A DNA stretch of 64,000 nucleotides, from NCBI RefSeq assembly GCF_024199795.1, contig NZ_JANADK010000001.1:5952001-6016000 (forward strand), given 5' to 3'. Under the pieces are notes generated by a model that made no database searches, was not told the origin of the DNA, and worked only from the letters and a program-made list of their open reading frames with translations. Positions 9,655-29,134 of the stretch are shown here, one piece after another. A program made the position numbers and the translations under genes. Each line of letters opens with the position of its first letter. Positions within the stretch are counted from its first letter, which is position 1. The DNA is from Bradyrhizobium sp. CCGB01 (lineage in GTDB: Bacteria; Pseudomonadota; Alphaproteobacteria; Rhizobiales; Xanthobacteraceae).

Positions 9655-11133
9655 TCACATCTTCAGAGCAAACGGATCGCGCTCTTCGTTCGAAAAATCG
9701 ATCATGACGTTCTTGGTCTGCAAGAATTCATCCAGTGCCGCCACCCCACGCTCTTTGCCAAATCCCGACTCCTTGAAGCCACCGAACGGCGCCATCGCGC
9801 TGGACGCACGATAGGTATTCACCCAGACCGTCCCTGCATGAATGGCCCGCGAGACGCGCAATGCGCGCGACAGGTTCGTCGTCCAAATCCCGGAGGCCAG
9901 GCCATATCTGGTATCGTTGGCGATGCTGATCGCTTGCTCCTCCGTATCGAAGGGAATGATCGAGAGCACAGGCCCGAACACCTCCTCCTGGGCAATCGCC
10001 ATCTTGTTCTCCACGCCGGTGAAGATGGTCGGCTCGATAAACAGGCCTTTCCCCAGACCATCCCCTGTCGCTGGCTTTCCGCCGCAAGCGAGAACCGCGC
10101 CCTCCCCTTGCGCATCGCCGATGCATTTGAGGATCCGCTCGAACTGTGGCTCGTTCGCCACCGTCCCCATATCGGTCGCCTTTTCCAATGGATTGCCGAG
10201 CCTGATCTTCCGGGCGCGGGCGACGAGCCGCTTCACGATCTCATCGTGAACTGAGCGCTGAACGAGGAGCCGCGAGCCGGCAATACATGTTTGCCCCGTT
10301 GCGCCGAAAATGCCGGCGAGAGCCCCGACGGTCGCCTTGTCGAGGTCGGCGTCTTCGAAGATGACGTTGGGAGACTTGCCGCCCAGCTCCAGCGTGACCG
10401 GGACAAGGGAGCGGCCCGCCTCTGCCGCGATCTGACGGCCGACATTGGGGCTCCCCGTGAAACTGACACGATCGATCCGGCCACTCGTGAGCAGCGCCTG
10501 CCCCGCCCTGTAGTCGCCGGTCACGACATTGACGACGCCCGCCGGAAAGCCCGCCTCCCGGACCAGCTCGGCGAATTCCAGCGTCGTCACCGATGCATGC
10601 TCGGAAGGCTTGATGACGACGCAATTGCCTGCCGCAAGCGCCGGGGCAAGCTTGTTCGCAAGCAGGCCCATGGGCGAATTCCAGGCCGTGATGAGAACCG
10701 CAACGCCGATCGGCTCCCGGCGCGTGAAGTCGAAGACATCGCGCTGGTCCAGCGGAATGGTATCGCCGAAGATCTTGTCGGCGCAGCCCGCGAAGAACCG
10801 ATAGGCGCGCGCGGCAAAATGCATCTGACCGTGGGTCTCCCGGATGATCTTTCCGTTGTCGGTGCTCTCCATGATGGCCATGCGCTCGGCTTGGGCATCG
10901 AGCAGATCGGCCAGCCTGTTCAGCAACGTCGCGCGGGCGAGCCCGGTGGTCTTGCTCCAGACGGAGTCATAGGCGGTCCTGGCAGCGGCGATCGCATCGG
11001 CGACCTGCGAGGGCGTTGCCTGCGGCACCAATGCCCATTCCTCGCGGCTATAGGGGTTTATGGCGGCGAACCATTCCTGGTTCGGCGTGGTCACCGTCTC
11101 GTTGGCAATCGCAAGTCCATACTTCCTGGGCAT
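9655..11133 (-). CDS. NAD(P)-dependent aldehyde dehydrogenase
   Basis: Oxidises an aldehyde to a carboxylic acid. 492 residues, typical length. The catalytic machinery is complete: Asn in AWNSPMG (about 152), general base Glu249 in LELGGKSPN, nucleophile Cys283 in GQTCIAGSR, and the cofactor-binding FTGSPNVGRQIA near 226. It is the last gene of the long operon with the 3-hydroxyisobutyrate-dehydrogenase-like enzyme and the lactonase-like protein, so it may oxidise a semialdehyde formed by that dehydrogenase. The specific substrate is not predictable. Confidence 0.93.
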   Translation of the reverse strand: MPRKYGLAIANETVTTPNQEWFAAINPYSREEWALVPQATPSQVADAIAAARTAYDSVWSKTTGLARATLLNRLADLLDAQAERMAIMESTDNGKIIRETHGQMHFAARAYRFFAGCADKIFGDTIPLDQRDVFDFTRREPIGVAVLITAWNSPMGLLANKLAPALAAGNCVVIKPSEHASVTTLEFAELVREAGFPAGVVNVVTGDYRAGQALLTSGRIDRVSFTGSPNVGRQIAAEAGRSLVPVTLELGGKSPNVIFEDADLDKATVGALAGIFGATGQTCIAGSRLLVQRSVHDEIVKRLVARARKIRLGNPLEKATDMGTVANEPQFERILKCIGDAQGEGAVLACGGKPATGDGLGKGLFIEPTIFTGVENKMAIAQEEVFGPVLSIIPFDTEEQAISIANDTRYGLASGIWTTNLSRALRVSRAIHAGTVWVNTYRASSAMAPFGGFKESGFGKERGVAALDEFLQTKNVMIDFSNEERDPFALKM

Positions 11134-11219
11134 GATCCATCATCTCCGCAATTGGCGAATTGTTGTGCTTCTGATCCGGACAGCGCGCGCTGCGCCGGCC
11201 TTCGCTTTTGGCTTGGTGT

Positions 11220-12020
11220 TTAGGCAGGGCTTCCGCGAGGATCGGCATCCAGTCGCGCGATGCCGTCGAGCTCATCGCGCGCGGCAGGAAACAGCGACAG
11301 CACCTGCCGGTCATGCCCCGGGATGATATGGGACGGGCTATCGGCCAATTTCCGGATGACCGCGAAGCCGTTCAGCGTCTGCTTCGTATCGAACAACACA
11401 GGAAATGGCCGGCTCTGGAGAATGTTGGCGTAGTAGTGCGAAGCGTCCGAGGCGAGCACCACGTAACCTCGTCGCGTCCTGACCCTGACGATCTGAAGTC
11501 CCGCGGTGTGACCGCCGAGCCAGTGCAAGGATATTCCGTCGTCGAAATCGGAGTTTGGATCGTGAAGGGTCACGCTTCCTTCGAAGTTCCGTCTGACGAT
11601 ATGGCCGACGTCCTCCGCATTGTAGGCCTTGCTTTGCTGCGCGTCGCACATGCACCGGCCCGTGCAGAAATGCATCTCGCGCTCCTGCACGTGATACCGC
11701 GCCCGGGGAAACAAATCGTGGTTGCCGGCATGGTCCCAATGCATGTGGGTCAGGATGACGTCCTTGACGTTCTCAGGATCGATATCGATCTGCTTCAGCC
11801 CTTCGGCAACCGGCCGCGTGACGGCGTAGTTGCGCGCCCTTCCGGCCTTCTCGTCAAAGCCGGTATCGACGATCACCGTCCGGTTTCGGCTGACCAGCGC
11901 CCAGACGAAGAAGTCCATCGGCATCTGCGTATCGGGCGCATCGTGCGCGATGAAGTTCTCCGACGAGCGCCGGTCATCCTTCCTGGCGTAACGGATCGCA
12001 TAGATTTCATACTCGGACAT
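11220..12020 (-). CDS. Metallo-beta-lactamase-fold hydrolase, lactonase-like
   Basis: 266 residues from ATG 12020. The two-zinc motif is intact as THMHWDHAGN (His92, His94, Asp96, His97), with later ligand-bearing segments WLGGHTAG, LASDASHYYAN and HIIPGHD. Arrangement and length fit the AttM/AiiA-like lactonase group, although other small esters are possible. The open frame runs 77 codons further upstream, but the family N-terminus and the neighbouring TctC gene (stop at 12029) argue for 12020. Within a carboxylate operon, opening of a lactone substrate is more likely than quorum quenching; this is inference. Confidence 0.82.
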   Translation of the reverse strand: MSEYEIYAIRYARKDDRRSSENFIAHDAPDTQMPMDFFVWALVSRNRTVIVDTGFDEKAGRARNYAVTRPVAEGLKQIDIDPENVKDVILTHMHWDHAGNHDLFPRARYHVQEREMHFCTGRCMCDAQQSKAYNAEDVGHIVRRNFEGSVTLHDPNSDFDDGISLHWLGGHTAGLQIVRVRTRRGYVVLASDASHYYANILQSRPFPVLFDTKQTLNGFAVIRKLADSPSHIIPGHDRQVLSLFPAARDELDGIARLDADPRGSPA

Positions 12021-12028
12021 GTCGTCGT

Positions 12029-12985
12029 TCACTGGCGCTCGATGCCAGCTTCCCTCGTTGTCGTCGCCCACAATTCCATGTCGCTCTTGACGTGCTCGCC
12101 GAACTCCGCCGGCCCGACCCATTGCGCCTCGAAGCCGATATCGGCGAGCCGGCTGCGGGTCTCGGGCTCGGCCAACACCTCGCGCACGCCCTCGGCGAGC
12201 TTTGCAACGATCTCCGGCGGCGTGCCCTTGGGCGCGAAGAGCCCGCTCCATGCGGAGATGTTGATGAACTCGAGGCCCCCTTCCTTCATCGTCGGGATCT
12301 CGGGGAAACGCGAGGCCCGGCCGAGGTTTGTGGTGGCGAGCGCGCGTGCCGTGCCGGCCTCGACCTGGGACACCGCGGGAGCCATATCCGTGAACGTCAT
12401 GGACACGCGTTGCGCGATGATGTCGGTGACGACCTGCGGGCTGTTCCGATAGGGCACGGCAGCAATATCGATGCCCGCCCGCCGCTTGAATGCCTCGCCG
12501 GACAGCTGGCCAAGCGCGTTGGCATAACCGAACGTGAGCGAGCCCGGCTTGGTCTTGGCCAGCGCCACGAGATCGGCCACGTTCTTGACGGGCAGGCCCG
12601 GATCAATGATCAGAAAATAGGGAAACAGGCCAAACTGCGAAATGGGCGCGAAGTCGGCGACGGGATCGTACTGGATCGATTTCAGCATGCTGGGGTTGGC
12701 TGCGTGCGTGGACGTTCCGCCGACCAGCAACGTATATCCATCAGGTACTGAACGAGCAGCCGCCGTTGCGCCCAGCGCTCCATTGGCGCCGACGCGATTG
12801 TCGATGACGATCGTCGTCTTCAGCAGCTCCGACAGCCGCTGAAACACGATGCGCGCAACGCCATCGGTCCCGCTGCCGGGCGCGAACGGCGCGATCACCG
12901 TAATCCGCTGCGAGGGATAGTTTTGCGCCCCTGCCCCGCTCAACTGCGAAAGCAGCAGGACAATCGTCAACAACAGCACCCGCAC
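12029..12985 (-). CDS. Tripartite tricarboxylate transporter receptor, Bug/TctC family
   Basis: Periplasmic solute receptor of 318 residues. A signal peptide (hydrophobic residues 2-19) precedes QNYPSQRITVIAPFAPGSGTD, the classical TctC start; GANGALGATAAARS and GGTSTHAANPS are binding-site loops of the family. These receptors bind carboxylates. No TctA or TctB membrane subunit is encoded in the window, so it is an orphan; such Bug receptors are abundant in soil proteobacteria and may use a distant TctAB or serve as sensors. The operon suggests the same carboxylate as the enzymes. Confidence 0.9.
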   Translation of the reverse strand: MRVLLLTIVLLLSQLSGAGAQNYPSQRITVIAPFAPGSGTDGVARIVFQRLSELLKTTIVIDNRVGANGALGATAAARSVPDGYTLLVGGTSTHAANPSMLKSIQYDPVADFAPISQFGLFPYFLIIDPGLPVKNVADLVALAKTKPGSLTFGYANALGQLSGEAFKRRAGIDIAAVPYRNSPQVVTDIIAQRVSMTFTDMAPAVSQVEAGTARALATTNLGRASRFPEIPTMKEGGLEFINISAWSGLFAPKGTPPEIVAKLAEGVREVLAEPETRSRLADIGFEAQWVGPAEFGEHVKSDMELWATTTREAGIERQ

Positions 12986-13035
12986 CAGACCCTCCCGTTG
13001 TCTTTCTTGCTAGAGCCCGAATGGCTCGATCACGA

Positions 13036-13923
13036 CTATTTCGAGGAACGCGCGATGATCTTCAGGATCACCGGCCAGTAATTCGCCCCAAAGCCGTTCT
13101 GCGAGGCTTCGGCCAGAAGACCGGCGCCGAGGGCCGCTTCCCTCGCCTCGATCCCGGCATCCCTGGCCATGTCGAGCGCGTAGGACATGTCCTTGTGCAT
13201 GTAGTCGGTCGAGAACACCCGTTCGGGAAATTCCTGCGCCGCGACCGCCTTGTAGCCATGATTGCGCAGCGCAAAGCTGTCGGCGGAGCCCTTGGAGAAG
13301 GCGTCGAACAAGGTCTCTGTCGATACGCCCGCCGAGTTCGCGATTGCGACGGCTTCGCACAGCGCGGTCACGGTCCCGACCACGACCATGTTGTTGAGGA
13401 TTTTCACGACCTGACCCGATCCGACATCGCCACAATGGGTGACCTCGCTGGCAAAGCAGCGGAGCAGCGGCTCGATGCGGGCAAACACGTCCGCCGTCGC
13501 CCCGACCGAAATCGCAAGCGTCCCCGCCTCCGCCGCCGCCCGCGTCCGGGCCACGGGTGCGTCGGCATAGTCGGCGCCCTTTGCCTTGAAGACGCCGGCC
13601 AGTTCGCGCGTCAGTTTCAACGGACTGGTGGAGAGATCGACGATGGTCTGGCCGGCGCGTGCGAACTCGAGCAGCCCTCCGCGCATCTCGCATATCTTCT
13701 TGAGGTGCTCGCCGCTCGGCATGGAAATGAAGATCACATCCGCCCCTGCGAGCCCCGAGATCGAGCCAACATCGACCGCACCAGCTTGAACGAGACGCGC
13801 CACTGGCTCGGCATTGATGTCGTGAATCAGTACTTTCTGCTTCGTCTTCTGCACGAGGTGCCGGCACATGGGTTCGCCCATGACGCCCAAACCGATGAAG
13901 CCGAAGGTCGAAGATCCAGTCAT
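13036..13923 (-). CDS. 3-hydroxyisobutyrate dehydrogenase-family NAD(P)-dependent beta-hydroxyacid dehydrogenase
   Basis: Oxidises a beta-hydroxy acid to a semialdehyde or beta-keto acid, or the reverse. 295 residues. The Rossmann motif FGFIGLGVMGEPM is at residues 7-19, DLSTS near 97-101, the substrate loop reads DAPVARTRAAAEAGT (usually DAPVSGG), and catalytic Lys174 is in GSGQVVKILNN. The altered loop suggests a substrate other than 3-hydroxyisobutyrate. Start at ATG 13923 has GGAG seven bases upstream. The family includes tartronate-semialdehyde reductase and 2-(hydroxymethyl)glutarate dehydrogenase. Confidence 0.88.
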   Translation of the reverse strand: MTGSSTFGFIGLGVMGEPMCRHLVQKTKQKVLIHDINAEPVARLVQAGAVDVGSISGLAGADVIFISMPSGEHLKKICEMRGGLLEFARAGQTIVDLSTSPLKLTRELAGVFKAKGADYADAPVARTRAAAEAGTLAISVGATADVFARIEPLLRCFASEVTHCGDVGSGQVVKILNNMVVVGTVTALCEAVAIANSAGVSTETLFDAFSKGSADSFALRNHGYKAVAAQEFPERVFSTDYMHKDMSYALDMARDAGIEAREAALGAGLLAEASQNGFGANYWPVILKIIARSSK

Positions 13924-13957
13924 GTTACAACTCCGGAATTTCCAGACAGACACTTAT

Positions 13958-14665
13958 TTAGATGCCGAGATAGGCGCGCCGCACGTAGTCGCTGGCCAGC
14001 AGGTCCTTGCCCTTCCCGCTCAGCGCGACCGCGCCGGTTTCGAGCACGAAGGCTTCGTTGCAGAGATTGAGCGCCAGCTTTGCATTCTGCTCGACCAGGA
14101 TGATCGACATGCCGATATCGCGGTTGATCTCGACGATGATACGCGCGATCTCGTCGACGATGATCGGAGCGAGCCCGAGCGAGGGCTCGTCCAGGAGCAA
14201 CAGGCGCGGCCTCGCCATGAGCGCGCGGCCAATGGCGACCATCTGCTGTTCGCCGCCCGACAGCGAACCGGCCATTTGGCTCCTTCGCTCCACAAGACGG
14301 GGAAAATATCCGTAGATCTGGTCCAGCGTCTTCTTCTGGTGAGCCCTGTCTCGCTGCGAATAACCACCCACCAGGAGATTGTCGAGCACGCTCATCTGCG
14401 GGAAGACACGTCGTCCTTCGGGCGACAGCGCGATACCGCGCCCGACGCGCTGGGGCGCAGAGGCACCGTCGATCCGCTCGCCGTCAAAATAGATCTCTCC
14501 GCCGCTCACGGGTTTAAGGCCGATGATGGCCTTCATCGTGGTGGTCTTGCCCGCACCGTTTGAACCGATGAGAGAGACAATGGCGCCGTCGGCAACGGAC
14601 AGGCTCAGATTGCGGACCGCCGTGAGAGGGCCGTAGGCAACGCTGATCCCGCGAACGTCAAGCAT
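13958..14665 (-). CDS. livF: Branched-chain amino acid-type ABC importer ATPase LivF
   Basis: Second nucleotide-binding subunit of a Liv/HAAT importer. 235 residues, exactly the LivF size. It has Walker [10 protein letters not shown] near residue 38, signature LSGGEQQM and Walker [15 protein letters not shown]. The start overlaps the end of livG by eight bases. With livG, livM, livH and the receptor gene the system is complete. In this operon the cargo is probably an organic acid or amide rather than leucine, as is common in this lineage; that is inferred from context. Confidence 0.93.
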
Positions 14666-15419
14666 GGACAGCCTCCTTGCCGAGATACGCCTCGATCACG
14701 ACCGGGTTTGATACGACCTCCGCAGGCGTTCCCTGTGCGATCAGCGTGCCGTGGTCCAGCACCACGACGCGATTGCACAGGCCCATGACGGTGCGCATGT
14801 GATGCTCGACCATCACCATGGTGACACCGCGCTCCGCCTGCACACGGCGGAGAACTGACGCGAGCTCAGCCGCTTCCTCTGGATTGAGCCCTGCGACCGG
14901 TTCATCGAGCATCAGGAGCCTGGGTTCGCTGGCGAGCGCGATGGCGACGCCGAGGCGCCGCTGCTCGCCATAGGACAGCTCGCGAGCCTTTAAGCCTGCG
15001 CGACGGGTTAGCCCGAACAGATCGAGCACATCAAACGCTTTCTCTTCCGCTGCCACCCGCCATCTATCCGAAAGCAACCCACCCCACAGGCCGGACAAGC
15101 CCGAAGCCAGCGTGCCACGCGCGGCGTTTTCGATGACCGTCGCCTCCGGGTAGATGGTTGCAGCCTGGAAGGTCCGCGACAGCCCCTGGCGAACCGTCTG
15201 ATTGGCCGGCTGCCCGGAGATATCGCGGCCCAGAAACCGGACCGTCCCCGCCGACGGCCTCAGAACGCCCGAGATCACGTTGAACAACGTGGTCTTGCCT
15301 GCGCCGTTCGGACCGATCAGGCCGAGAAAGTCTCCCTCTTTGACATCAAACGACACGTCCCGAACGGCAACAAGCCCGCCGAAGGAACGCTTCAGGCTAT
15401 CGACTTCGAGCATGCTCAT
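14658..15419 (-). CDS. livG: Branched-chain amino acid-type ABC importer ATPase LivG
   Basis: First nucleotide-binding subunit, 253 residues. Walker [10 protein letters not shown] lies at about residues 36-44, the signature region is [10 protein letters not shown], Walker B is [15 protein letters not shown], and the C-terminus carries the LivG-specific tail ending in IEAYLGKE. It overlaps livM by four bases and livF by eight bases, so the cassette is translated in step. Confidence 0.93.
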
Positions 15420-16408
15420 GGCACTTCCTCGGCCACGCGCGCTGCGCTAATTTCTGCAACCCGTTGGCGCGAACGCCAGGCCTGGACAACGCTCGCCAGA
15501 CCGTTCGGAACGAACATCAGGCAAAGCACGAGCACGCCCCCGTAGATGATATGCTGCAATCCCTCAGTGGATCGCAGCAGCTCCGGCAAGGGCGTCAGGA
15601 CCAGCACGCCGACGACCGGCCCCAGCACCCCGTCACGCCCGCCGACGACCAGCATGGTCAGGTAGGAGACTGACTCCCAGAACGTATATGAATCCGGCGA
15701 AATGAACCGGAGATAGTGCGTCGACAACGCGCCCGCAAAACCCGCGATGCCGGATCCGATCGTAAAGGCGATCACCTGCACTCGATGCGTGTCGATGCCG
15801 CTCGATTCGGTAAGGCGCTGGTTCTCGGCGGTCGCCGCCATCATCGTGCCGAGCGGCGACCGGTAGAGCAGCCAGGTCAGGAGCAGCGTCGCCAGCGCGC
15901 AACCGAGCGCGAAGGGATAGAATTGCGGCTTGGTGCGAAGGACGTAGCCGAAGATCGAGATCGGGGGCACACCGACGAGCCCGTTTGCGCCGCCCGTGAC
16001 CGAGCTCATGTCCAGCGCCAGCAACACCGCGATCTGGCTGAACGCAAAGGCCACCAGCACGAAATAGACGCCGCGCAAGCGCAGGATGATCCAGCCAAGA
16101 GCGGCGGCGATGACGGCCGCAACCAGCCCCGCGACGAACAGGGTCACCAGAGGCGGCCAGCCCCTCATCGACAACAGCGCCGAAACATATCCGCCGACCA
16201 GCGCAAAGCCACCATGGCCCATGGATAGCTGCCCCGCCCGGGCAATGATGGCGAGGCCCAGCACGAGCATGAGATTGATGCAGCCGACTGTCGCGAGGTG
16301 AACATAGAACTGGTTCGGTGCGAACCAGGGCAGTAGCGCGGCGAGACCGACGGCGGCTGCGACGCCGACATAGGACATCGGCTTGAACTGGGCTGTGTGA
16401 GCAATCAC
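15416..16408 (-). CDS. livM: Branched-chain amino acid-type ABC importer permease LivM
   Basis: Inner-membrane subunit, 330 residues with eight or more hydrophobic segments. LivM hallmarks include NLMLVLGLAIIARAGQLSMG near residues 40-60 and the late segment containing GGRDGVLGPVVG. It starts four bases inside the end of livH. It forms the channel with LivH. Confidence 0.93.
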   Translation of the reverse strand: MIAHTAQFKPMSYVGVAAAVGLAALLPWFAPNQFYVHLATVGCINLMLVLGLAIIARAGQLSMGHGGFALVGGYVSALLSMRGWPPLVTLFVAGLVAAVIAAALGWIILRLRGVYFVLVAFAFSQIAVLLALDMSSVTGGANGLVGVPPISIFGYVLRTKPQFYPFALGCALATLLLTWLLYRSPLGTMMAATAENQRLTESSGIDTHRVQVIAFTIGSGIAGFAGALSTHYLRFISPDSYTFWESVSYLTMLVVGGRDGVLGPVVGVLVLTPLPELLRSTEGLQHIIYGGVLVLCLMFVPNGLASVVQAWRSRQRVAEISAARVAEEVP

Positions 16409-17280
16409 GCCTCACGCTCCTTTCGGCCCAGCAGGCCCTGCGGACGCAGCAGTACGACAGCGATGACGACGAGAAACTGGAGGATCTCCGATAGCGAGGC
16501 GCTCACGAACGTTCCCGCAAAGCTCTCGATCAGGCCGATGAGCAATCCGCCCGCCACGGCGCCGGGAACGCTACCAAGCCCGCCGATGACGACGATCACG
16601 AAGGCCTTCAGCGTCGGCGCGAGGCCAATGAAGGGCGAGACCGACAGCACAGGAGCCATGAGGACGCCGGCGAAGGCCGCAAGGCTCACGCCCAGCACGA
16701 ACGCGACCGGAAATATCACGTCGACGCGAATACCTTGCACCTGCGCGATCTCGGCGTCCTGGGCGACGGCACGCATGGCCCGACCAATTCGCGTATGACC
16801 GATCAGCAGGTTGAGCGACACGACGGCGACGATCGCCCCGATGATGACGACCAGCCGCGACCAGGGGAACACCACGCCACCGACGGACAGGACCCCGGAT
16901 ATGACAGGCGGCACGGTGCGTGCCGACGCCCCCCACATCAGCAGCGCGCTGTTCTGCAGAATGAGAGCGACGCCGACGGAAGCGATCATCCCGTTCAGCT
17001 CGTTGCCGCGAAACTTGCGGAAGACGATCCGCTCCATCAGCAGGCCCAGCAACGCCGTGGCGCCTACGGCCAGCAGAACGCTGATGGAGAACGGCACATC
17101 GTTGCTGCCATAGAGGATCGCGAACAGGAACGCGCCGGCCATGTAGAACTCACCATGCGCGAAGTTCACGATGCGCATGATGCCGAACACCATGGTGAAG
17201 CCGATGGCCATCAACACGTAGATCATGCCGACCATGAGGCCGTTCACGATGGTCTGGGCTAGAATGATTTCCATGCTCAC
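16405..17280 (-). CDS. livH: Branched-chain amino acid-type ABC importer permease LivH
   Basis: Inner-membrane subunit, 291 residues. It has the family start with QTIVNGLMVGMIYVLMAIG and the conserved VNFAHGEFYM near residue 38, and ends with RPQGLLGRKEREA. It follows the receptor gene after 63 bases that contain a strong hairpin, and overlaps livM by four bases. Confidence 0.93.
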   Translation of the reverse strand: MSMEIILAQTIVNGLMVGMIYVLMAIGFTMVFGIMRIVNFAHGEFYMAGAFLFAILYGSNDVPFSISVLLAVGATALLGLLMERIVFRKFRGNELNGMIASVGVALILQNSALLMWGASARTVPPVISGVLSVGGVVFPWSRLVVIIGAIVAVVSLNLLIGHTRIGRAMRAVAQDAEIAQVQGIRVDVIFPVAFVLGVSLAAFAGVLMAPVLSVSPFIGLAPTLKAFVIVVIGGLGSVPGAVAGGLLIGLIESFAGTFVSASLSEILQFLVVIAVVLLRPQGLLGRKEREA

Positions 17281-17304
17281 GGGACGACAACTCCAATCGC
17301 TTCA

Positions 17305-17327
17305 GCGAGGCGCGCCAAGCGCCTCGC
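17305..17327. repeat. Strong hairpin between receptor and permease genes of the Liv operon
   Basis: Perfect 9-base arms GCGAGGCGC (17305-17313) and GCGCCTCGC (17319-17327) with a 5-base loop. It lies just after the receptor stop codon and before livH on the minus strand. No T-run follows. Such stems between a binding-protein gene and its permease genes commonly raise receptor mRNA over permease mRNA by blocking 3' exonucleases or by partial termination. Confidence 0.7.
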
Positions 17328-17343
17328 GTGTTCCGGCAGTCGC

Positions 17344-18501
17344 TTATTTGCAGGCGTTGACGTCGCAGGTGGCTACCTTGGTGACGACGCCGTCCTTCAT
17401 CTGCCCCACATAGAACGGAAGATCGATCTGGTGCTTGATCCCGTACTTCTGCTCGCCGGTCCAGCCCGCCTTGCCCATCGCGGTGGGAACGTCGGACAAT
17501 CCATCCAGCGTCGTTGCGATCTTCGTCGTGTCGTCGACGGTCCCGGCCTTCTTCATGGCCGTGAACAACATCTGCAGGCCGGCATAGAAGAACGGGCTGA
17601 ACCCGTTCATGTTCGGGCCGTATTTGGCCTTGAAGCGGGCAACATAGGCCGCCGTGTCCGGCAGGCCGGTATCGATGGGCAGGTGGACATAGGTGCCTTC
17701 AGCCGCATCCTTGCCCGCCACCTTGAGCATCTCGGCGGCGACATCGCCGCCCGTGACGAACACCGGACCGCGATAGCCCAGTTCGCGGGCCTGCTTGAGG
17801 ATGAGCCCGGCGGTGGTCGGAGAGTTGCCGCCAAGCTCGAGACCGTCGGCCTTCATCAGGATGCGGGTCAGAATGGGCACGAAGTCGACGCGCTCACGTT
17901 CGAAATATTCGACCTGCAGCTTCGCGCCGGCCTTGGCGTATGAGTTGAAGTTCGCAACGCCGATCTGCTGCCCGGTCTCGTCATTGGGAAGCAGCGACAC
18001 GACCTGCTTGGCAGAGGTGTTCTTCATCAGCCAGGCCACCTGCGGGTCGGAGAATTCGCCGGTGGTGATCACCGGCCGATACGCATACGGCGCATCCGCG
18101 CCGAGCGCCCGCGGCGTGAACGCCAGCGTCATCGTGATGACTTTTCCAGAGGTGGTCTGATCCTTCGTTGCCACCGCCGCTGCCGATCCCATCGGACCCA
18201 CCACGAAGCGGATTCCGTCCTGGATCATGAGGCGATCCATGGCCGTGACCGCGTCCTGGGCGCGATAGCGGTCGTCATATTGCTTGAGCAGGACTTTGTA
18301 GCGTTTGCCGGCGACCTCGAGGCCGCCGTCTTTATTGACGTCTTCGGCGGCAAAATCGGTGGCGGCGAGCATGCCCTCGGCAAACGCAGCGCCGGCACCG
18401 GAAAAACTGGCGTGCACGCCGATCGTGACACTGTCTTCGGCCTGCGCCGCGGAACACACGACCGATGCGGCGAGTACGGCAACCAACTCAAAACGCTTCA
18501 T
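17344..18501 (-). CDS. Liv-type periplasmic substrate-binding receptor
   Basis: Receptor of the LivHMGF importer, 385 residues. A signal peptide ends around CSAAQAEDSVTIG, followed by GVHASFSGAGAAFAEGM, the typical type I periplasmic fold entry. Central elements include GPMGSAAAVATKD and LLPNDETGQQIG. Two Cys near the end (ATCDVNACK) may form a disulfide. It follows the PrpD-like gene after 104 bases. The ligand is unknown; the operon points to a carboxylate or derivative. Confidence 0.9.
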   Translation of the reverse strand: MKRFELVAVLAASVVCSAAQAEDSVTIGVHASFSGAGAAFAEGMLAATDFAAEDVNKDGGLEVAGKRYKVLLKQYDDRYRAQDAVTAMDRLMIQDGIRFVVGPMGSAAAVATKDQTTSGKVITMTLAFTPRALGADAPYAYRPVITTGEFSDPQVAWLMKNTSAKQVVSLLPNDETGQQIGVANFNSYAKAGAKLQVEYFERERVDFVPILTRILMKADGLELGGNSPTTAGLILKQARELGYRGPVFVTGGDVAAEMLKVAGKDAAEGTYVHLPIDTGLPDTAAYVARFKAKYGPNMNGFSPFFYAGLQMLFTAMKKAGTVDDTTKIATTLDGLSDVPTAMGKAGWTGEQKYGIKHQIDLPFYVGQMKDGVVTKVATCDVNACK

Positions 18502-18605
18502 TCCAATCTCTCCCCAGATGTGACTCTTGTCTGCCTTGTTCTTTTGTTTTCAGGTAAGGCTTGTCGTTGCGATCGCGGCTTGGCCGCCTCGCATTCACTC
18601 GCGGG

Positions 18606-19604
18606 TTACGGAACCCAGTTCGTCTCCTCCGGCTCGTGCGTTCCCCGCGGGGCGAAGACGACCTTCTTTGGAGCCGCTTGGGCACCGCGTCCCTGCAACA
18701 GGCGCGATACCGTCGCGAGGTCTGTCACCTTGTCGATGGTCTCGAGCCGCTCGAACAGCGGACCGATCTGATCGCGCGGCAGGACAGTGCTCGCCTGCCG
18801 CTCGAATTGATCCCAGAGATCAGCTGACGGCGGCAATTGAACTGCAAGAAGATCGAAGGCCGCATCGCTCGGCGCGCTGTCGTTCGCCGCCAGAGTTGCG
18901 ATCTCGCCCCCTTCGCTCCTGATCATCTCGGCGCAGGACGCTTCGTCCATGGCTTCGGCAAGCAAGGCAGCCAGCAATCCGCTTCGAAAGCTCAGACCGA
19001 CCATGAGCGACGCCGGTCCGACCCGTCCGGCCGGAGGACTGTCAACGTTTGCCATTCCTGCCAGGAGCAGCGCGGCTGCAATTTTCGGGCGACTCAATTC
19101 GAGCACGCGTGCAGCCGCCGCGACGCCACCGAACAAGGCTGGTCCGAACTGGCCGCCTGCCGGCGACAGCATCGGCGCAAGACAAGGAGCGATCTCCGCG
19201 CCTGACATCAACGCGTCGAGGAAGTCTTGCCCGGTTTTTCCGCGCTCCTCGCAGAGCCCAAACAGCGCCACGATACAGGCCGAATTCACGGCTTCACGTG
19301 ATGCTTCGGATCCCGCCATCGCAGCCGTGGCGTTGATCAACGCAGCATCGACCGCGCTCGTGCGCCGTTCGGTGCCGAAGATCAGCGACGGGCCGCCGGT
19401 CGTTGCGACACCGGACGTCCCCAGCAGCGCTTTCGTGATGGTGGCCGGCGCACCGGACAGCGTCCGACCGAACGCGGTGATGACCGCCGCCCTGGCCCTT
19501 GCTGCCGCTTTGGTATCTCGCGACCGCGGATCGCGGGCGGAGATCTTGTCCGCCAGGCTTTCGGCCCAGGCATCAGGACCCGACCTCATGGCGCCGGCGC
19601 TCAT
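18606..19604 (-). CDS. Short MmgE/PrpD-like protein (N-terminal helical domain only)
   Basis: 332 residues, against roughly 450-500 for complete MmgE/PrpD enzymes (2-methylcitrate dehydratase, cis-aconitate decarboxylase). Family-like elements are LADKISARD, the NATAAMAGSEASRE region near 95, DFLDALMSGAEIAP near 135, and the GGQFGPALFGGVAAAARVL helix. The usual central Asp/His-rich lid and the whole alpha/beta C-terminal domain are missing or diverged. Start ATG 19604 overlaps the flavoprotein stop by four bases, so it is a maintained operon member rather than debris. It could be a reduced hydratase, a decarboxylase or a partner subunit; moderate certainty on family, low on function. Confidence 0.6.
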   Translation of the reverse strand: MSAGAMRSGPDAWAESLADKISARDPRSRDTKAAARARAAVITAFGRTLSGAPATITKALLGTSGVATTGGPSLIFGTERRTSAVDAALINATAAMAGSEASREAVNSACIVALFGLCEERGKTGQDFLDALMSGAEIAPCLAPMLSPAGGQFGPALFGGVAAAARVLELSRPKIAAALLLAGMANVDSPPAGRVGPASLMVGLSFRSGLLAALLAEAMDEASCAEMIRSEGGEIATLAANDSAPSDAAFDLLAVQLPPSADLWDQFERQASTVLPRDQIGPLFERLETIDKVTDLATVSRLLQGRGAQAAPKKVVFAPRGTHEPEETNWVP

Positions 19605-21121
19605 CGCGATGCCACCGCCGCGGCCGGCGCGACGCTTTGCTGGCTCGCGGCATTGCGGCCCGCGATCCTGCCGAAGGTCGCGCCCGAGACGAGACCGGTG
19701 CCCGCGGGATAATTGTCGTAGAACAGGCCGCCGACGAGTTCGCCGCAGCAGTACAATCCCTTGATCGGACGCCAATCCGTGCCGATCACTTCGGCGTTCT
19801 CGTTGATCTTCAGGCCGCCGAACGTGAAGGTGATGCCGCCCGTCGCGCTGTAGGCATAGTAAGGAGGCTTGTCGAGCCGCAGCGCCCAGTTGGTCTTTTC
19901 GAGATCGAGCCCCTTGGTGGACAGGCCGTCCTTCTTCGTGGGATCGAAGCCTTCGTCCGCCGAGCGCGCGTGGTCGTTGTAGTTGAGGACCGTCTTGAGC
20001 GCCTGCGCCTTGTCGTCGATATCGAGTTGCGCGATCAGCTCCTCGAGCGAATTGGCCTTGATCGGATCGCTGGTCGAATAGCGCGGCTCGAGCAGATGGA
20101 TCACCTTGCTGTCGAACAGCTGGTAGGCCTTGGCGCCCGGCTCGGCCAGAATGGCGCGGCCGAATTTGGCGTAGGTGAAGAGCGCGCCGTCCTCGCCTTC
20201 GTCGACGAAGCGCTTGCCCTTGCGATTGATCATCACCGAATAGACGTAGGACAGACGATTGCTCCGGTCGGTCATTTCGCGCGGCGCGAAGTCACCCCAA
20301 TCCGCGCTGATCGGCGTGGCATGGCAGCCGCTCCATTGCCCCCATGGCATGGCGCCGATCGCCAGAGCCATCCGCAAGCCGTCGCCCTGGTTGTGAGGCG
20401 TCCCGCGGACCTTCGCAGCGCCGACCAGCGGACCGATGTGTTGCGTGCGCATCTGGACATTCGCTTCAAAACCGCCGCAGCCGAGCACGACGGCCTTCGC
20501 GCCGAGCGAGCGAACGCCCTCCTCGTCCTTGGTCTTGACGCCGACGACGCGCCCCTGGTCATCGACAAGCAGCTCCGAGACGGCATTGCCGTAGCGCACC
20601 TCGATGCCCATGCGCTCGCAGGTCGAAAACCAGCTGCGCGAGAGACCGACGCCCTCGTGCGCCGCGCGCACGACGAGGCCGCGCGCCCAGACCATGACGT
20701 TGTCTTTCTTGACCGCGGAAAGGCTGATCGCCGGCTCCATCTTGATGCCGCCGGTGTCCTTCATCCAGCGAACGGTCGCCTGCGAGTTCGACACGAGAAG
20801 ACGAGACAACGTCGGATCCGTCCGCCCGTTGGTGACGCGCACGAGATCGCCGTGGAAGTCTTCCTGCGTGTAGGGAGATATGCCGTCGTAGAAATTGTCG
20901 AACTCGTCTTCGATGCCCGGCAGCAGAGCCCCGATCTCGCGCGGCTCGTCATAAGCGAAGCGCAGAACGCCGCCGCTCCAGTGCGTGTTTCCGCCTCGCA
21001 TTTCGCGAGGAGCTTTCTCGAGAACGACGACACGATCGGCGCCGTTTTCTTTCGCCGAGACTGCCGCAGCCAGAGCGGCGTTTCCCGCGCCAACGACGAT
21101 CACATCGAACTCTTCGTGCAT
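19601..21121 (-). CDS. FAD-dependent dehydrogenase, tricarballylate dehydrogenase (TcuA)-like
   Basis: 506-residue flavoprotein of the fumarate reductase/succinate dehydrogenase flavoprotein family. The FAD motif is DVIVVGAGNAALAAA (residues 6-20), with EKAPREMRGGNTHWSGG next, GCGGFEAN near 220 and a C-terminal FGGLKINENAEV...LYCCGELVGG region. This layout matches TcuA, which oxidises tricarballylate to cis-aconitate; related enzymes act on other saturated carboxylates or steroids. First gene of the 11-gene operon. A 16-base palindromic operator lies 55 bases before the ATG, and AAGGA precedes the start. Confidence 0.85.
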   Translation of the reverse strand: MHEEFDVIVVGAGNAALAAAVSAKENGADRVVVLEKAPREMRGGNTHWSGGVLRFAYDEPREIGALLPGIEDEFDNFYDGISPYTQEDFHGDLVRVTNGRTDPTLSRLLVSNSQATVRWMKDTGGIKMEPAISLSAVKKDNVMVWARGLVVRAAHEGVGLSRSWFSTCERMGIEVRYGNAVSELLVDDQGRVVGVKTKDEEGVRSLGAKAVVLGCGGFEANVQMRTQHIGPLVGAAKVRGTPHNQGDGLRMALAIGAMPWGQWSGCHATPISADWGDFAPREMTDRSNRLSYVYSVMINRKGKRFVDEGEDGALFTYAKFGRAILAEPGAKAYQLFDSKVIHLLEPRYSTSDPIKANSLEELIAQLDIDDKAQALKTVLNYNDHARSADEGFDPTKKDGLSTKGLDLEKTNWALRLDKPPYYAYSATGGITFTFGGLKINENAEVIGTDWRPIKGLYCCGELVGGLFYDNYPAGTGLVSGATFGRIAGRNAASQQSVAPAAAVASR

Positions 21122-21175
21122 TTCCGTTCCTTCCCGCCAAGCCTTCGTCGCTGCGTTTCTGTATTCTTGTGAATA

Positions 21176-21191
21176 CCAATGTATACATTGG
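21176..21191. promoter_or_regulatory. GntR operator candidate, perfect 16-base palindrome, before the flavoprotein operon
   Basis: CCAATGTATACATTGG is a perfect palindrome lying in the 207 bases between the GntR gene and the flavoprotein gene. Sites matching it at 13 of 16 positions lie before the PrpF-like gene (22229-22244 and 22248-22263). FCD-type GntR regulators bind such short palindromes, so this is the likely control site of the adjacent regulator. Confidence 0.75.
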
Positions 21192-21328
21192 AATGCAAGA
21201 CAGAATGAGACGATTCCGGATTTTACGGAAAATTGAGCCAGAACAGTATTTTACGGGGGATATGTCGGCTGACTGAGGATCAGAAACAGCTCTGCGAGCA
21301 ACGAAGACGGTTCAGCTCGCACGTTGAT

Positions 21329-22033
21329 TCAGGAGCCGTCCTGTTCGCGGCGCGCTTCCAGATCACGCTCTTTCGCCAGGATCGCCCGACGGGTCTCGAG
21401 CGCGCTCAGGACATGCGCCCGCGCAAGCCGCTCGGCCTTCTCCCCTTCTCGCTGCGAAATGGCCTGCACGATCGCCGCATGCTCGGCTTGCGCGACGGCA
21501 AAGCGGCCCTTCTCGGCCAAGGTCGTCGGCCCCAGCAGCGCGATCGCATCCTGAAGAGCCGACAAGCTCTTTTCGAGATAGCGGTTGTGGGCGGCGACCT
21601 GGATTGCGTCATGCAGCTCCCTGTTGTGGCGATAGAGCTTGAACGGCTCGCGCTCGAGCTTTTCACCTTCGGCGACAAGTCTTGCCAGTGCGGCAAGATC
21701 TTTCGGGCTTGCATGCTTCGAGGCCAATGCGGCCGCAGTCCCTTCGAGCGCCGCACGCATCTCGTAGAGTTCTTCGACCGCATCCAGATCGAGAACGGAG
21801 ACGACAAGCCCGGTTCGCGGCCGAAGATCGAGCAGGCCCTCGAGTTCGAGCCGCGTCAACGCCTGACGCGTCGGCGTTCGGCTGATGCCGAGATGTTCCG
21901 CCAATTCGACTTCGCGCATGCGCCGCCCCGGAGCAAAGCGCCCTTCGACGATCTCACGCCGCAGCGCCGCGTAAGCGTAGTCGGCAGCAGATGCGAACTT
22001 CGTGCGGTCCGGCAACACCATCTCGTCGTTCAT
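21329..22033 (-). CDS. GntR family transcription regulator, FadR/FCD subfamily
   Basis: 234 residues. The winged helix-turn-helix covers roughly residues 17-80 (YAALRREIVEGRFAPGRRM, HLGISRTPTRQAL, LEGLLDLRPRTGLVV). The FCD ligand domain follows, with potential metal-binding residues in RHNRELHDAI, AEHAAIVQAI and ARAHV. FCD domains usually bind small carboxylates, agreeing with the enzymes on both sides. GGAAAG precedes the ATG at 22033. It sits between the two halves of the proposed regulon and very likely controls both through the GTATAC palindromes, perhaps itself too. Confidence 0.92.
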   Translation of the reverse strand: MNDEMVLPDRTKFASAADYAYAALRREIVEGRFAPGRRMREVELAEHLGISRTPTRQALTRLELEGLLDLRPRTGLVVSVLDLDAVEELYEMRAALEGTAAALASKHASPKDLAALARLVAEGEKLEREPFKLYRHNRELHDAIQVAAHNRYLEKSLSALQDAIALLGPTTLAEKGRFAVAQAEHAAIVQAISQREGEKAERLARAHVLSALETRRAILAKERDLEARREQDGS

Positions 22034-22228
22034 GAAGTCTTTCCGATCTCATTCGGCAGGAGCTGCTCGTACGAGCGTGACGCGCCAAGCCGTCCATCAA
22101 TGATCTGCGTCCGATTCTTCTGACCGTACAAGGCAAGCGAACGACACAAAATATTCGGCGCCGCGCCGCCTGTCTGGAACGAGGCAATCAGCGTCCACCG
22201 AATAGAATAAGGGTAGCAGCCCGCCGGA

Positions 22229-22263
22229 TGAATGTATACAGTGGTATCCAGCGTATACATCGG
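22229..22263. promoter_or_regulatory. Pair of GntR operator candidates before the PrpF-like gene
   Basis: TGAATGTATACAGTGG (22229-22244) and CCAGCGTATACATCGG (22248-22263) each match the perfect palindrome at 21176-21191 in 13 of 16 bases. Their centres are 19 bases apart. They occupy the promoter-proximal part of the divergent region and end 19 bases before the preferred start codon at 22283, a position suited to repression. Confidence 0.72.
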
Positions 22264-22282
22264 TATGCAAAAGACGGACTTA

Positions 22283-23461
22283 ATGCCCCAGAACAAGCTC
22301 AGAGCCACTTTCATGCGCGGCGGCACGTCGAAAGCCGTTGTGTTCAACAGACGCGACCTGCCGGCAGATCCTGCACAATGGGATCCGATCTTCCTGTCCG
22401 TGATGGGTTCGCCCGATCCCAATGGCCGCCAGCTGGACGGCATGGGCGGCGGGCTGTCATCCCTTTCGAAGGTTTGCGTCGTCGGCGCGCCGACGCGGCC
22501 GGACGCCGACATCGACTATACGTTCGCCCAGATCTCGGTGAAGAGCGCCGCGGTCGATTACAGCGCAAATTGCGGCAACATGTCTTCGGCGATGGGCCCG
22601 TTCGCCGTCAGCCAAGGCCTGGTGAAGGCGCCCGCGAACGGTGAAGCTGTCGTGCGCATTCACAACACCAATACCGGCAAGATCATCGTCGCGCGCTTCC
22701 CTGTGAACGACGGTGAGATCGAGACCGACGGCGAGATGGCGATCGATGGCGTGAGCGGACACGGTGCCCCTGTCCGGCTGGAATTCATCGATCCCGGCGG
22801 CACCAGGACCGGACGCCTGCTCCCGACCGGGCATCCGTGCGATCATTTCGATATTCCCGGCCTCGGCTCGATCGAAGCATCTCTCGTCGATGCCGCCAAC
22901 CCTTGCGTCTTTGTTGCGGCCGCCTCGGTCGGCAAGGACGGCGGCGAGATGCCCGAAGCACTCGAGAGCGATCCAGTTTTTCTCGAACGGATGGAAGCGA
23001 TTCGCTGCGCAGCCTCCGTGGCGATGGGCCTCGCGCCGAGCGTGGCCGAAGCAGCCAGGATCCCCAGCGTGCCCAAGGTCGCGATGATTGTCTCGCCGCG
23101 CCCGATGACGACCTTGTCGGGGCAGCGGCTGGAGCCCTCGGACATGTCGCTGGGCATCCGGATGATCTCGATCGGCCAGCCGCACCGGGCGGTCCCGATC
23201 ACCGGCGCCACCTGCCTCGCGATCGCGGTGCGCATCAACGGCACGCTTGCGAACCGGATGGCGCGCGCCGGCGATGGCCCGATCACCATTGCACACCCCT
23301 CCGGCACGACCGTGGTCGATGCGGCCGTCGAACACGCTGACGATCCCGCAAAAGCGCGGGCGATTCACGGCGCGGTCTACCGCACCACGAGACGGCTGTT
23401 CGAGGGAAACGTCTTTTACAGGAATGACCGAACGACTGCGCTTGCGAAGCGCAGCGCGTAA
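22283..23461 (+). CDS. PrpF-family isomerase (2-methylaconitate / aconitate / methylitaconate isomerase-like)
   Basis: 392 residues of the PrpF/DapF-fold family, which moves a double bond or inverts geometry in unsaturated polycarboxylates. The N-terminus KLRATFMRGGTSKAV is diagnostic and Cys97 in YSANCGNM is the expected catalytic base. GGGLSSLSKVCVVG and the C-terminal HPSGTTVVDA region also fit. The start at ATG 22283 gives the family N-terminus; ATG 22265 and an ATG at 22232 inside the operator are in frame but less likely. Family members include methylaconitate isomerase, 3-methylitaconate isomerase, aconitate isomerase and 4-oxalomesaconate tautomerase, so the substrate is open. Confidence 0.87.
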   Translation: MPQNKLRATFMRGGTSKAVVFNRRDLPADPAQWDPIFLSVMGSPDPNGRQLDGMGGGLSSLSKVCVVGAPTRPDADIDYTFAQISVKSAAVDYSANCGNMSSAMGPFAVSQGLVKAPANGEAVVRIHNTNTGKIIVARFPVNDGEIETDGEMAIDGVSGHGAPVRLEFIDPGGTRTGRLLPTGHPCDHFDIPGLGSIEASLVDAANPCVFVAAASVGKDGGEMPEALESDPVFLERMEAIRCAASVAMGLAPSVAEAARIPSVPKVAMIVSPRPMTTLSGQRLEPSDMSLGIRMISIGQPHRAVPITGATCLAIAVRINGTLANRMARAGDGPITIAHPSGTTVVDAAVEHADDPAKARAIHGAVYRTTRRLFEGNVFYRNDRTTALAKRSA

Positions 23462-23481
23462 CAATACGGGAGCCCTCGCCA

Positions 23482-24411
23482 ATGACCTATCTGACTTCAG
23501 CCGACACCAACACGCGCGCCCCCGGCCTTCGGTTTCGCGATCTTCTTGCGCGTCCCGGCATTCTGGCAATGCCCGGCGCCCACAATGGCATGGCGGCACT
23601 CCAGGCCAAGCAGGCCGGTTTCGGCGCTCTCTATCTGTCGGGCGCCGCGATGACCGCGTCCATGGGCATTCCGGATCTTGGCATCATCACCGTGGATGAG
23701 GTCGCGTTCTTCATACGTCAGCTCAAGCGCGCGGCCGACCTTCCCATCCTGGCGGATGGCGACACCGGCTATGGCGAAGTGCTCAACGTCATGCATATGG
23801 TGCGCGTGTTCGAAGACGCGGGCGCGGCTGCGGTGCAGCTGGAAGATCAGCTCTTGCCAAAGAAGTGCGGGCATCTCAACGACAAGAAGCTCGCGGATCC
23901 CCGCGATTTCGCCACGAAGATCGCCGCGGCCGCAAAGGCCCGCCACCATCTCTATATCGTGGCACGCACGGACGCCGCAGCGGAAGAAGGGATTGAAGGG
24001 GCTGTTGCGCGCGCCCGGCTCTATATCGAGGCAGGAGCCGACGCCATTTTCCCGGAAGCGCTGACCACCTCCGAGATGTTCAGGGAATTTTCGCGCCGCA
24101 TGCCTGACGTCCCGTTGCTGGCCAACATGACGGAGTTCGGTCGAACTCCCTTCTTTACGGCGCCGGAATTCGAGGCGATGGGCTACAAGATGGTGATCTG
24201 GCCGGTTTCGTCATTGCGCGTTGCCGCGCGCGCGCAGGAAAACCTTTACGCTGCCTTGAAGCGCGACCATGGCACGCACGGAATGCTCGATTCGATGCAG
24301 ACCCGCGCCGAGCTCTATCGCACCATCGGATATTCGGACTACGAAGCGCTTGATCAGAGTATCGTCCGCACCATCGTCCCCGAAGGGACGCCCCAAAACT
24401 CGCCAACCTGA
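23482..24411 (+). CDS. PrpB-like lyase of the isocitrate lyase/PEP mutase superfamily
   Basis: 309 residues. The superfamily signature PKKCGH (Cys129 catalytic) and metal-site ILADGDTGYGE (about 89-99) are intact; LAMPGAHNGMAAL and YLSGAAMTASMGIPD match 2-methylisocitrate lyases and 2,3-dimethylmalate lyases. It should cleave a 2-hydroxy-polycarboxylate to pyruvate or glyoxylate plus a dicarboxylate or propionate-type acid. It starts 20 bases after the PrpF-like gene, so the isomerase and the lyase are coexpressed and probably consecutive or nearly so in one pathway. Confidence 0.88.
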   Translation: MTYLTSADTNTRAPGLRFRDLLARPGILAMPGAHNGMAALQAKQAGFGALYLSGAAMTASMGIPDLGIITVDEVAFFIRQLKRAADLPILADGDTGYGEVLNVMHMVRVFEDAGAAAVQLEDQLLPKKCGHLNDKKLADPRDFATKIAAAAKARHHLYIVARTDAAAEEGIEGAVARARLYIEAGADAIFPEALTTSEMFREFSRRMPDVPLLANMTEFGRTPFFTAPEFEAMGYKMVIWPVSSLRVAARAQENLYAALKRDHGTHGMLDSMQTRAELYRTIGYSDYEALDQSIVRTIVPEGTPQNSPT

Positions 24412-26306: not shown

Positions 26307-26309
26307 GCC

Positions 26310-27245
26310 ATGGCGACGACAGCGGTGACATCGGTCGACATTGCGAGTGAGGCGCCTCGCAGCGATTTCGGCCGCGTATTGGCGCAGCGCGAGCGCCGGT
26401 TTGCAGCAGCTTTGCTTGCACCGGCGTTTCTCGCCCTGCTCGCCACGACGACGTTTCCGCTGCTCTTCCTGGTCTATACCAGCGCGTTCCGGATGGATCT
26501 GGCGATGCCGTTCACCAACGGCTTCGTCGGGTTCGAGAACTACCAGGTGCTGCTTGCCGACGAGCGCTTCTGGACCTCGCTGCTGGTGAGCCTCGTCTAT
26601 ACCGGCTCGACCGTCGCGCTCCAGGTCATCATCGGGCTGGCGCTCGCCTTGCTGGTCATGGACATGAAGCGCGGCCAGGGCTGGTTCAGGGTTATCGCCA
26701 TCCTGCCCGTGGTGCTGTCGCCGGCCGTGGTCGGCATGATCTGGCGCACCTTCATGCTGGCCCCCGAATTCGGCATCGTTGATTTCCTAGCGATCAATGC
26801 GGGGCTCGGCAGCAAGAACTGGCTCGGCGATCCCACGCTCGCGATGGTCTCGGTGATCGCGATCCATACCTGGCAGTGGACGCCGTTCGCGTTCATGGTG
26901 CTGCTGGCTTCGCTGGCCTCTCTGCCCGAGGACATCTACGAGGCCGCGCGGCTCGACCGTGCCTCCGCCTGGCAGCGTTTCCGTCGCATCACCCTGCCCT
27001 TGCTGCGCCCCGCAATCGTGATGGTTATCATCATGCGGACGATGGTGGCGCTGACCGCGTTCGCCGCGATCTTCACCGTCACCGCGGGCGGCCCCGGCAC
27101 GGCGACCGAGATCCTCAATCTCTATGCCTATCGGAAATCCTTCACCGAGCTGTCGATCGGCTACGGCTCGGCGCTCGCGGTGGCGCTCTTGATCGTGACC
27201 ATCATCATCTCCGGCATCCTGTTTGCGATGCGGAGGGCGAAATGA
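26310..27245 (+). CDS. CUT1 ABC importer permease (MalF/UgpA-like)
   Basis: 311 residues with six main hydrophobic segments. The cytoplasmic EAA loop is near residues 208-235 (IYEAARLDRASAWQRFRRI). It starts three bases after the receptor stop and overlaps the second permease by four bases. Inner-membrane channel half of the importer. Confidence 0.92.
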   Translation: MATTAVTSVDIASEAPRSDFGRVLAQRERRFAAALLAPAFLALLATTTFPLLFLVYTSAFRMDLAMPFTNGFVGFENYQVLLADERFWTSLLVSLVYTGSTVALQVIIGLALALLVMDMKRGQGWFRVIAILPVVLSPAVVGMIWRTFMLAPEFGIVDFLAINAGLGSKNWLGDPTLAMVSVIAIHTWQWTPFAFMVLLASLASLPEDIYEAARLDRASAWQRFRRITLPLLRPAIVMVIIMRTMVALTAFAAIFTVTAGGPGTATEILNLYAYRKSFTELSIGYGSALAVALLIVTIIISGILFAMRRAK

Positions 27246-29130: not shown

Positions 29131-29134
29131 CACC

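Follow-up and report, generated by a model that had tools for sequence, protein, structure and literature searches.

A TcuA-like flavoprotein and its short, tail-bearing MmgE/PrpD-fold partner in a predicted polycarboxylate regulon of Bradyrhizobium

Positions 9655–24411 of the window, by which we mean the whole 64-kb stretch of the 9.3-Mb genome of Bradyrhizobium sp. CCGB01 analysed here, hold a cluster encoding 14 proteins, among them a TcuA-like flavin adenine dinucleotide (FAD) dehydrogenase and a short PrpD-like protein read here as its pseudoenzyme partner. Profile matches place at this locus all the families named in an earlier, sequence-only reading made without database searches. The dehydrogenase gene, tcuA (19601..21121, minus strand), matches FAD_binding_2 and passes NF006130 (533.8 bits against a cut-off of 369); it belongs to the tail-associated subfamily described below. 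The short prpD gene (18606..19604, minus strand) encodes 332 amino acids with a match to PF03972 (51.2 bits, cut-off 32.1); it probably starts at 19604, with an ATG overlapping the tcuA stop, and ends with the codons for a C-terminal tail, ETNWVP, and the stop at 18606..18626. On the other side of tcuA lie a predicted palindromic operator (21170..21197; 14-nt arms, 86% complementary), the gene of a GntR-FCD regulator (21329..22033, minus strand; PF00392 and PF07729) and a second predicted operator, made up of two GTATACANNGGTATNC units found by motif matching (22232..22268). The plus-strand half of the cluster encodes a PrpF-family double-bond isomerase (22283..23461; PF04303, 398 bits), with 22283 as its probable start and the first in-frame ATG (22232) falling at the operator, and a PrpB-family C–C lyase (23482..24411; PF13714 (PEP mutase/PrpB), 151 bits; TIGR02317, 409.3 against 354.4; best solved relative 4iqd, 319 bits). 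The genome as a whole yielded a single PF04303 gene and a single PrpB that exceeds its cut-off.

The rest of the minus-strand half begins with a Peripla_BP_6 receptor (17344..18501; PF13458, 155 bits) and, by profile match, LivH-like (16405..17280) and LivM-like (15416..16408) permeases and LivG-like (14658..15419) and LivF-like (13958..14665) ATPases. It continues with a 3-hydroxyisobutyrate-dehydrogenase-like (HIBADH) enzyme (13036..13923, probable start 13923; PF03446/PF14833, 121/91 bits), a TctC/Bug-type carboxylate receptor (12029..12985; PF03401, 186 bits), a lactonase-like hydrolase of the metallo-beta-lactamase fold (11220..12032; PF00753, 68 bits), whose translation contains HMHWDH and whose probable GTG start at 12032 overlaps the tctC stop, and an aldehyde dehydrogenase (ALDH; 9655..11133; PF00171, 569 bits). 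Scans for sigma-70 promoters and terminators gave no more than shuffled sequence did, and no Rfam family was matched.

The palindrome before tcuA (TGAATACCAATGTA/TACATTGGAATGCA) and the two units before prpF are forms of the same motif. With at most two mismatches, GTATACANNGGTATNC has four matches in the window, all at the tcuA and prpF promoters, where 0.06 would be expected; a 17-mer version with at most three mismatches has six matches genome-wide, four of them in the cluster. A GTATAC core occurs in a like setting in both gaps in all eight relatives of one group (L067–L074), one of which, L068, has a single operator unit rather than two before prpF. The neighbourhood comparison that the sequence-only reading had called for found the gene order retained beyond chance. 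A PrpF at least 88% identical over its full length is present in five of 146 genomes of the genus, our own included, and in each of them the ALDH-to-PrpB block has the same order; among 60 loci collected from species genomes by TcuA alignment, eight keep the whole block, all of them Bradyrhizobium (the two sets of relatives overlap in G068/L073 and G092/L071). The left flank (CoA ligase, MaoC, CaiB) is common to one of the four close relatives, G068, and the right flank to none. Because the operator is shared by both halves and conserved in relatives, and because block order is kept while the flanks change, we consider it highly probable that the genes at 9655–24411 constitute one regulon; the GntR protein would bind the predicted operators. 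The single regulon proposed earlier is thus supported for both the plus and the minus half.

The TcuA label, which the sequence-only reading took as a function, is less secure. The cluster protein misses the cut-off of TIGR02485 (245.3 against 372.55) and is only 35% identical to a second, canonical TcuA (726 bits) encoded elsewhere in the genome and followed by a TcuB open reading frame of 368 amino acids (G000:C1:2195984-2198474; a stop flagged near TcuB is the end of this frame). No TcuB lies beside the cluster tcuA, the sole TIGR02484 match in the genome, at 2.197 Mb, being next to the other tcuA. Relative to TcuAB of Salmonella, the cluster protein is an FAD dehydrogenase of the same hidden Markov model family, but it has a tail-bearing PrpD-like partner instead of an adjoining TcuB. 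Its subfamily can be recognized by 45 positions fixed (at least 98%) in 57 members and absent from 13 outgroup TcuA proteins, and it is rare: at E 1e-150 it is found in three of 398 sampled genomes of the phylum (our own included), all of this genus. Residues peculiar to the subfamily include W145, R147, W164, W260, W275 and W450. Because the genome has a separate canonical tcuAB, plain tricarballylate is an unlikely substrate.

The PrpD label is similarly misleading. For the MmgE/PrpD family, PMC12290011 proposes H85, D88, H99, H150, K198 and K266 of IDS epimerase as catalytic or substrate-binding residues and describes a 1,4-dicarboxylate backbone as common to the known substrates. In alignments, the columns of all six residues are deleted or replaced in the short protein and retained in a full-length relative; the lid domain, PF19305, has no match in the short protein, where its region is deleted. 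By alignment these six residues and the lid are missing, which makes a hydratase or decarboxylase function of the short PrpD very unlikely, and the hydration or decarboxylation step that the sequence-only reading had assigned to it is not upheld. What the short protein shares with MmgE/PrpD enzymes (IDS epimerase, methylsuccinate isomerase, cis-aconitate decarboxylase and 2-methylcitrate dehydratase) is a PF03972 remnant; it differs from them in its losses and in the extra C-terminal tail. Scores of the full-length relative are 233 bits to IDS epimerase, 185 bits to Bacillus IRG1 and 27 bits to 2-methylcitrate dehydratase. Six further PrpD-family genes lie elsewhere in the genome.

A search of 5.8 billion proteins returned 75 matches, comprising eight forms of the full-length type (458–504 amino acids, in the 448–504 class) and 67 short forms (275–359 amino acids), for which the organism name displayed was Bradyrhizobium in every case. 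Three catalytic motifs are absent from all 67 short homologues, while full-length partners contain HALD[FY]DD in 31 of 41 cases and GWHPT in 40 of 41 (a strict DFDD pattern undercounts them; DYDD was also allowed). Across nine Bradyrhizobium sequences the ratio of non-synonymous to synonymous rates (dN/dS) of the short PrpD has a median of 0.25, with a range of 0.19–0.32 over all pairs, compared with medians of 0.045–0.11 for ten other cluster genes; it is the fastest-changing of these proteins (dN 0.166, against 0.021–0.102 for the ten others). To judge from its sequence the short PrpD is retained, hardly as an enzyme, and we hold with high confidence that it is non-catalytic but functional.

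The retention of this dead enzyme seems to be explained mainly by its six C-terminal residues, through a function they have for the adjacent flavoprotein. ET.W[VI]P forms the C terminus of 66 of the 67 short homologues, and the remaining sequence, P0065, looks like a frame error; the tail is the least changed part of the short PrpD (proportion of non-synonymous differences 0.059 for the last 29 residues, against 0.08–0.22 for the rest). Three of the 60 loci from the TcuA alignment (L081, L117 and L125) are cut at or just behind tcuA and were left out. The tail is present in 56 of the other 57, on a linked PrpD-like partner in 49 and fused to TcuA in seven. A PrpD-like gene comes directly after tcuA in 50 of the 57, and ET.W[VI]P or a close variant of it closes 49 of these 50 partners; none of the 50 accompanying TcuA proteins carries the tail. 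In the remaining seven loci TcuA is extended to 536–544 amino acids and itself ends in the tail, with W[VI]P in all seven and ET in six (L107 has EPEWVP). Such fusion, of which the protein at L105:9992-11590 is an example, is found in all six loci that have readable DNA behind tcuA and no PrpD there; in the seventh, L103, the contig stops 138 bases behind tcuA, so a partner may lie beyond. Among the best 120 of 7985 homologues of a fused TcuA, the tail occurs on 20 of 21 with a C-terminal extension of at least 30 amino acids and on none of 98 without one, a single protein being unclassed. The W and P are invariant and the E and T nearly so in a comparison that covers 40 partners of full length together with 73 short forms and 26 fused TcuA proteins.

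The association extends to new plasmid loci of the subfamily, where the linked PrpD bears the tail in both cases (Paraburkholderia and Paracoccus); a tail-ending open reading frame was found in none of the six outgroup TcuA plasmid loci examined, of fourteen below 60% identity. In 44 of 49 loci the nearest in-frame ATG or GTG of the linked PrpD is at most 50 nt from the tcuA stop, and in 17 the two overlap. The tail codons occur as a true C terminus once in each of ten searched genomes that bear the subfamily and not at all in G084, which is without it; the ten other codon-pattern matches in these 11 genomes are antisense to one repeated open frame; in our own genome the only other match is antisense to another open frame. 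A general targeting signal was rejected on the grounds of this single true tail per subfamily-bearing genome and its absence from G084. Unlinked PrpD paralogues in the same loci lack the tail in 43 of 43 cases. Many TcuA–PrpD loci (for example L098, L100, L113 and L124, about 14.5–18.3 kb) hold extra PrpD paralogues of this kind, outside the linked clade and tail-less.

We suggest, at what we regard as even chances, that this TcuA-like subfamily depends on a six-residue ET.W[VI]P peptide, supplied either in trans, on a separate partner of the MmgE/PrpD fold, or in cis, as a fusion, that in at least two lineages a partner stripped of its active site survives as the peptide carrier, and that in others the peptide alone is left, on the dehydrogenase. 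Direct action of the tail on TcuA seems to us as probable as not, with docking of the tail on TcuA as the simplest form it would take. In the literature searched we found no trans-acting tail for a flavoenzyme, possibly replacing TcuB. Many database proteins are called TcuA or PrpD after their family, and in this case both names can mislead: this TcuA belongs to a second subfamily beside canonical TcuAB, and this PrpD has no active site.

The ancestor of the short PrpD would be a full-length MmgE/PrpD protein that partnered TcuA and was probably an enzyme of epimerase type serving the same dehydrogenase; by analogy with methylsuccinate isomerase, the full-length partners, such as that of Paraburkholderia xenovorans LB400, may be epimerases that feed it. 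Mapped on the TcuA tree, the short form requires two changes and the fused tail requires three, of which two in each case are forced by well-supported branches (L107, a long row, is of uncertain placement). A second short-form lineage, in Paraburkholderia, comprises seven database clusters, with the tail in all seven and the catalytic motifs in none. Over the C-terminal 72 residues this form matches four Paraburkholderia full-length partners at 46–54% and the Bradyrhizobium short forms at 28–33%; over the same length the window's short form matches its eight nearest full-length relatives at 55–62%. Because of this C-terminal comparison, and as in the TcuA tree, we tentatively read two origins of the short form. 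If the flavoprotein needs the tail, the system would clearly document how an enzyme can dwindle to a short peptide with a docking or regulatory role, with every stage (full enzyme, dead enzyme and fused tail) still alive in related bacteria.

For the cluster as a whole we propose one GntR-controlled catabolic unit whose substrate is a polycarboxylate with a succinate backbone. The compound would resemble tricarballylate or methyltricarballylate and may be formed from a lactone or from a precursor with a hydroxymethyl group. Uptake would have two parts, the Liv system and the TctC receptor. The hydrolase, the HIBADH-like dehydrogenase and the ALDH may prepare the substrate, in which the TcuA-like flavoprotein would introduce a double bond beside a carboxylate; PrpF would then shift this bond, a housekeeping aconitase would hydrate it, and PrpB would cleave the product to a 2-oxoacid or glyoxylate plus succinate. 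No reaction is ascribed to the short PrpD, which would be kept because TcuA needs its ET.W[VI]P peptide together with the preceding stretch, most simply by docking. We infer each reaction and the substrate. The order of the reactions is offered tentatively and the tricarballylate-type substrate with somewhat less assurance again; the explanation taken whole, as unit, reactions and tail-bearing pseudoenzyme, is in our estimate evenly poised between right and wrong. In soil and plant-associated bacteria the cluster would mark a further polycarboxylate route with two receptors.

The polycarboxylate theme of the sequence-only reading is supported, and its sequence of desaturase, PrpF, hydration and PrpB, without the PrpD-like step, has parallels in Rhodococcus and Hydrogenophaga. 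A Rhodococcus opacus plasmid holds PrpB-like (42%), AcnA, citrate symporter, PrpF and TctB/TctA-type genes together, a Shinella HZN7 plasmid tcuAB, AcnA and PrpF, and a Hydrogenophaga BPS33 plasmid TcuA, LeuCD and PrpF; in these three modules PrpF is 49–55% identical to ours and stands beside an aconitase-type hydratase. All three stretches differ from the cluster in having other transporters, no PrpD among the annotated genes shown and no tail-ending open reading frame. Shinella WSC3-e combines TcuA with a dehydrogenase (30%), an ALDH (49%) and two aldolase-type lyases. Our dehydrogenase has DAPVART where its Shinella relative has DAPVSGG, a difference that may mark a different substrate.

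Anaerobic nicotinate fermentation, to which the sequence-only reading had likened the cluster, uses a dehydrogenase, a PrpF-family isomerase and a PrpB-family lyase of the same families, and the closest solved relative of our dehydrogenase (3cky, 148 bits) is a 2-hydroxymethylglutarate dehydrogenase. The comparison is otherwise loose: the dehydrogenase reaches no NCBIfam cut-off, and PrpF falls below both named models (TIGR02334, 317.5 against 440.55; GalD NF033377, 325.7 against 440). A difference already pointed out in that reading, the absence of a B12 mutase, is confirmed for the 14 cluster proteins, to which the search was confined and in which no B12-type domain, including that of 2-methyleneglutarate mutase, was found. 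Neither the flavoprotein nor the importer is known to be part of the nicotinate pathway. As to the statement that no described pathway has exactly this set, no paper with these gene names together was found in the open-licence literature searched, which does not take in most subscription journals.

Several observations weigh against the explanation proposed here. Neither PrpF nor the hydrolase reaches the cut-off of any specific model, the hydrolase falling below every lactonase model (AhlS, 56.9 against 475; AttM, 56.7 against 390). No hydratase is encoded in the cluster, and of three aconitase-superfamily genes elsewhere in the genome none exceeds the AcnD cut-off. A distant Chloroflexi locus, L126 (TcuA 37%), has a linked PrpD without the tail. 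Codon usage marks the short PrpD only weakly, its frame having been missed by a simple filter on GC content at third codon positions, and the PrpD tree, against two origins of the short form, joins both short lineages (Shimodaira–Hasegawa-like approximate likelihood-ratio test 99, with a long-branch warning). Outside the eight whole-block Bradyrhizobium loci, TcuA is seldom accompanied by close relatives of the enzymes PrpB, HIBADH and ALDH, which occur in 4, 3 and 6, respectively, of the 52 loci (for ALDH, matches of at least 60% identity; all three counts are lower bounds, with flanks of 10 kb at most), and the full set is therefore not a fixed module. The tail might also be a docking tag for a third protein, such as an electron acceptor replacing TcuB, and not bind TcuA at all. 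The cluster has no TcuB, the only one found belonging to the other tcuA, and a tail carried by either TcuA or its partner would suit a shared third binder. We nevertheless think this the less probable course: within the flanks seen, none of the other gene families is common to all 53 loci compared, although the binder may be encoded elsewhere, and the tail is on no other protein in 11 genomes.

That the short PrpD is simply a decaying pseudogene, its tail surviving by chance or through translational coupling, would agree with its rank as the fastest-changing protein (dN 0.166), yet we consider it very improbable, given dN/dS of 0.19–0.32 in all pairs, an intact tail on 66 of 67 database clusters and on 7 of 7 from Paraburkholderia, and its persistence on TcuA in six loci with no PrpD behind. 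An ordinary tricarballylate or 2-methylcitrate pathway in an unusual gene order has in its favour that TcuA passes NF006130 and PrpB passes TIGR02317, and the cluster has the PrpF and PrpB families in common with the 2-methylcitrate cycle (PrpF, AcnD and PrpB). We judge it unlikely, in view of the canonical tcuAB elsewhere and the failure of TIGR02485, the lack of a catalytic PrpD in the cluster and of an AcnD above cut-off in the genome, a PrpF below its model, and a 69%-identical PrpB that occurs with PrpF and an FAA hydrolase in Sagittula. Somewhat less unlikely is a substrate that is a lactone derived from ring cleavage or from a terpene, with PrpF and PrpB as a general terminal module. 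Two further genomes of the genus have PrpF (45–54%) and PrpB (66–72%) in one locus, adjacent in G053 and 6 kb apart in G031; these loci also encode FAD ring hydroxylases and FAA-hydrolase-family proteins, and that of G031 a P450 as well. The cluster itself has a Liv-type importer and a lactonase-like hydrolase. It encodes no ring-opening enzyme, however, and no lactonase model reaches its cut-off.

A second arrangement occurs in five other genomes of the genus, in which PrpF is 62–65% identical to ours. Four of them have a TcuA at 82–83%, a full-length PrpD of 502–504 amino acids, the hydrolase, PrpF, PrpB and a Liv importer, and one of these, G137 (L043:14449-18238 and L044:348-2303), adds a short-chain dehydrogenase/reductase, a 651-amino-acid reductase resembling old yellow enzyme and BaiCD, and a second TcuA. 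In the fifth, G084, the stretch seen is without this TcuA and PrpD and has a 41% TcuA near the hydrolase.

Two neighbouring groups of genes were considered as parts of the system and rejected. The minus-strand genes at 2616–9234, which encode a SucCD-like CoA ligase, MaoC-type dehydratases and two CaiB-type CoA transferases beside an ABC importer and look like another acid–CoA catabolic operon, adjoin the cluster in G068 and in none of the other three relatives. The plus-strand genes from 24912 onward follow prpB in none of the four; those at 24912–31584 include sugar-type ABC importer parts, a UgpC-like ATPase, a GntR-UTRA regulator and a sulfatase, a seemingly unrelated uptake unit. Pieces of PrpF (76–88%) with PrpB or part of it, without the rest of the block, lie at G027:C1:6570916-6571281 and on G071:C185 and are possible remnants of the cluster. 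Among the eight relatives L067–L074, identity to our proteins is 86–92% for PrpF and 91–95% for GntR; for PrpB it is 73–76% to seven of them and 94% to L074, and PrpB has perhaps been exchanged between strains.

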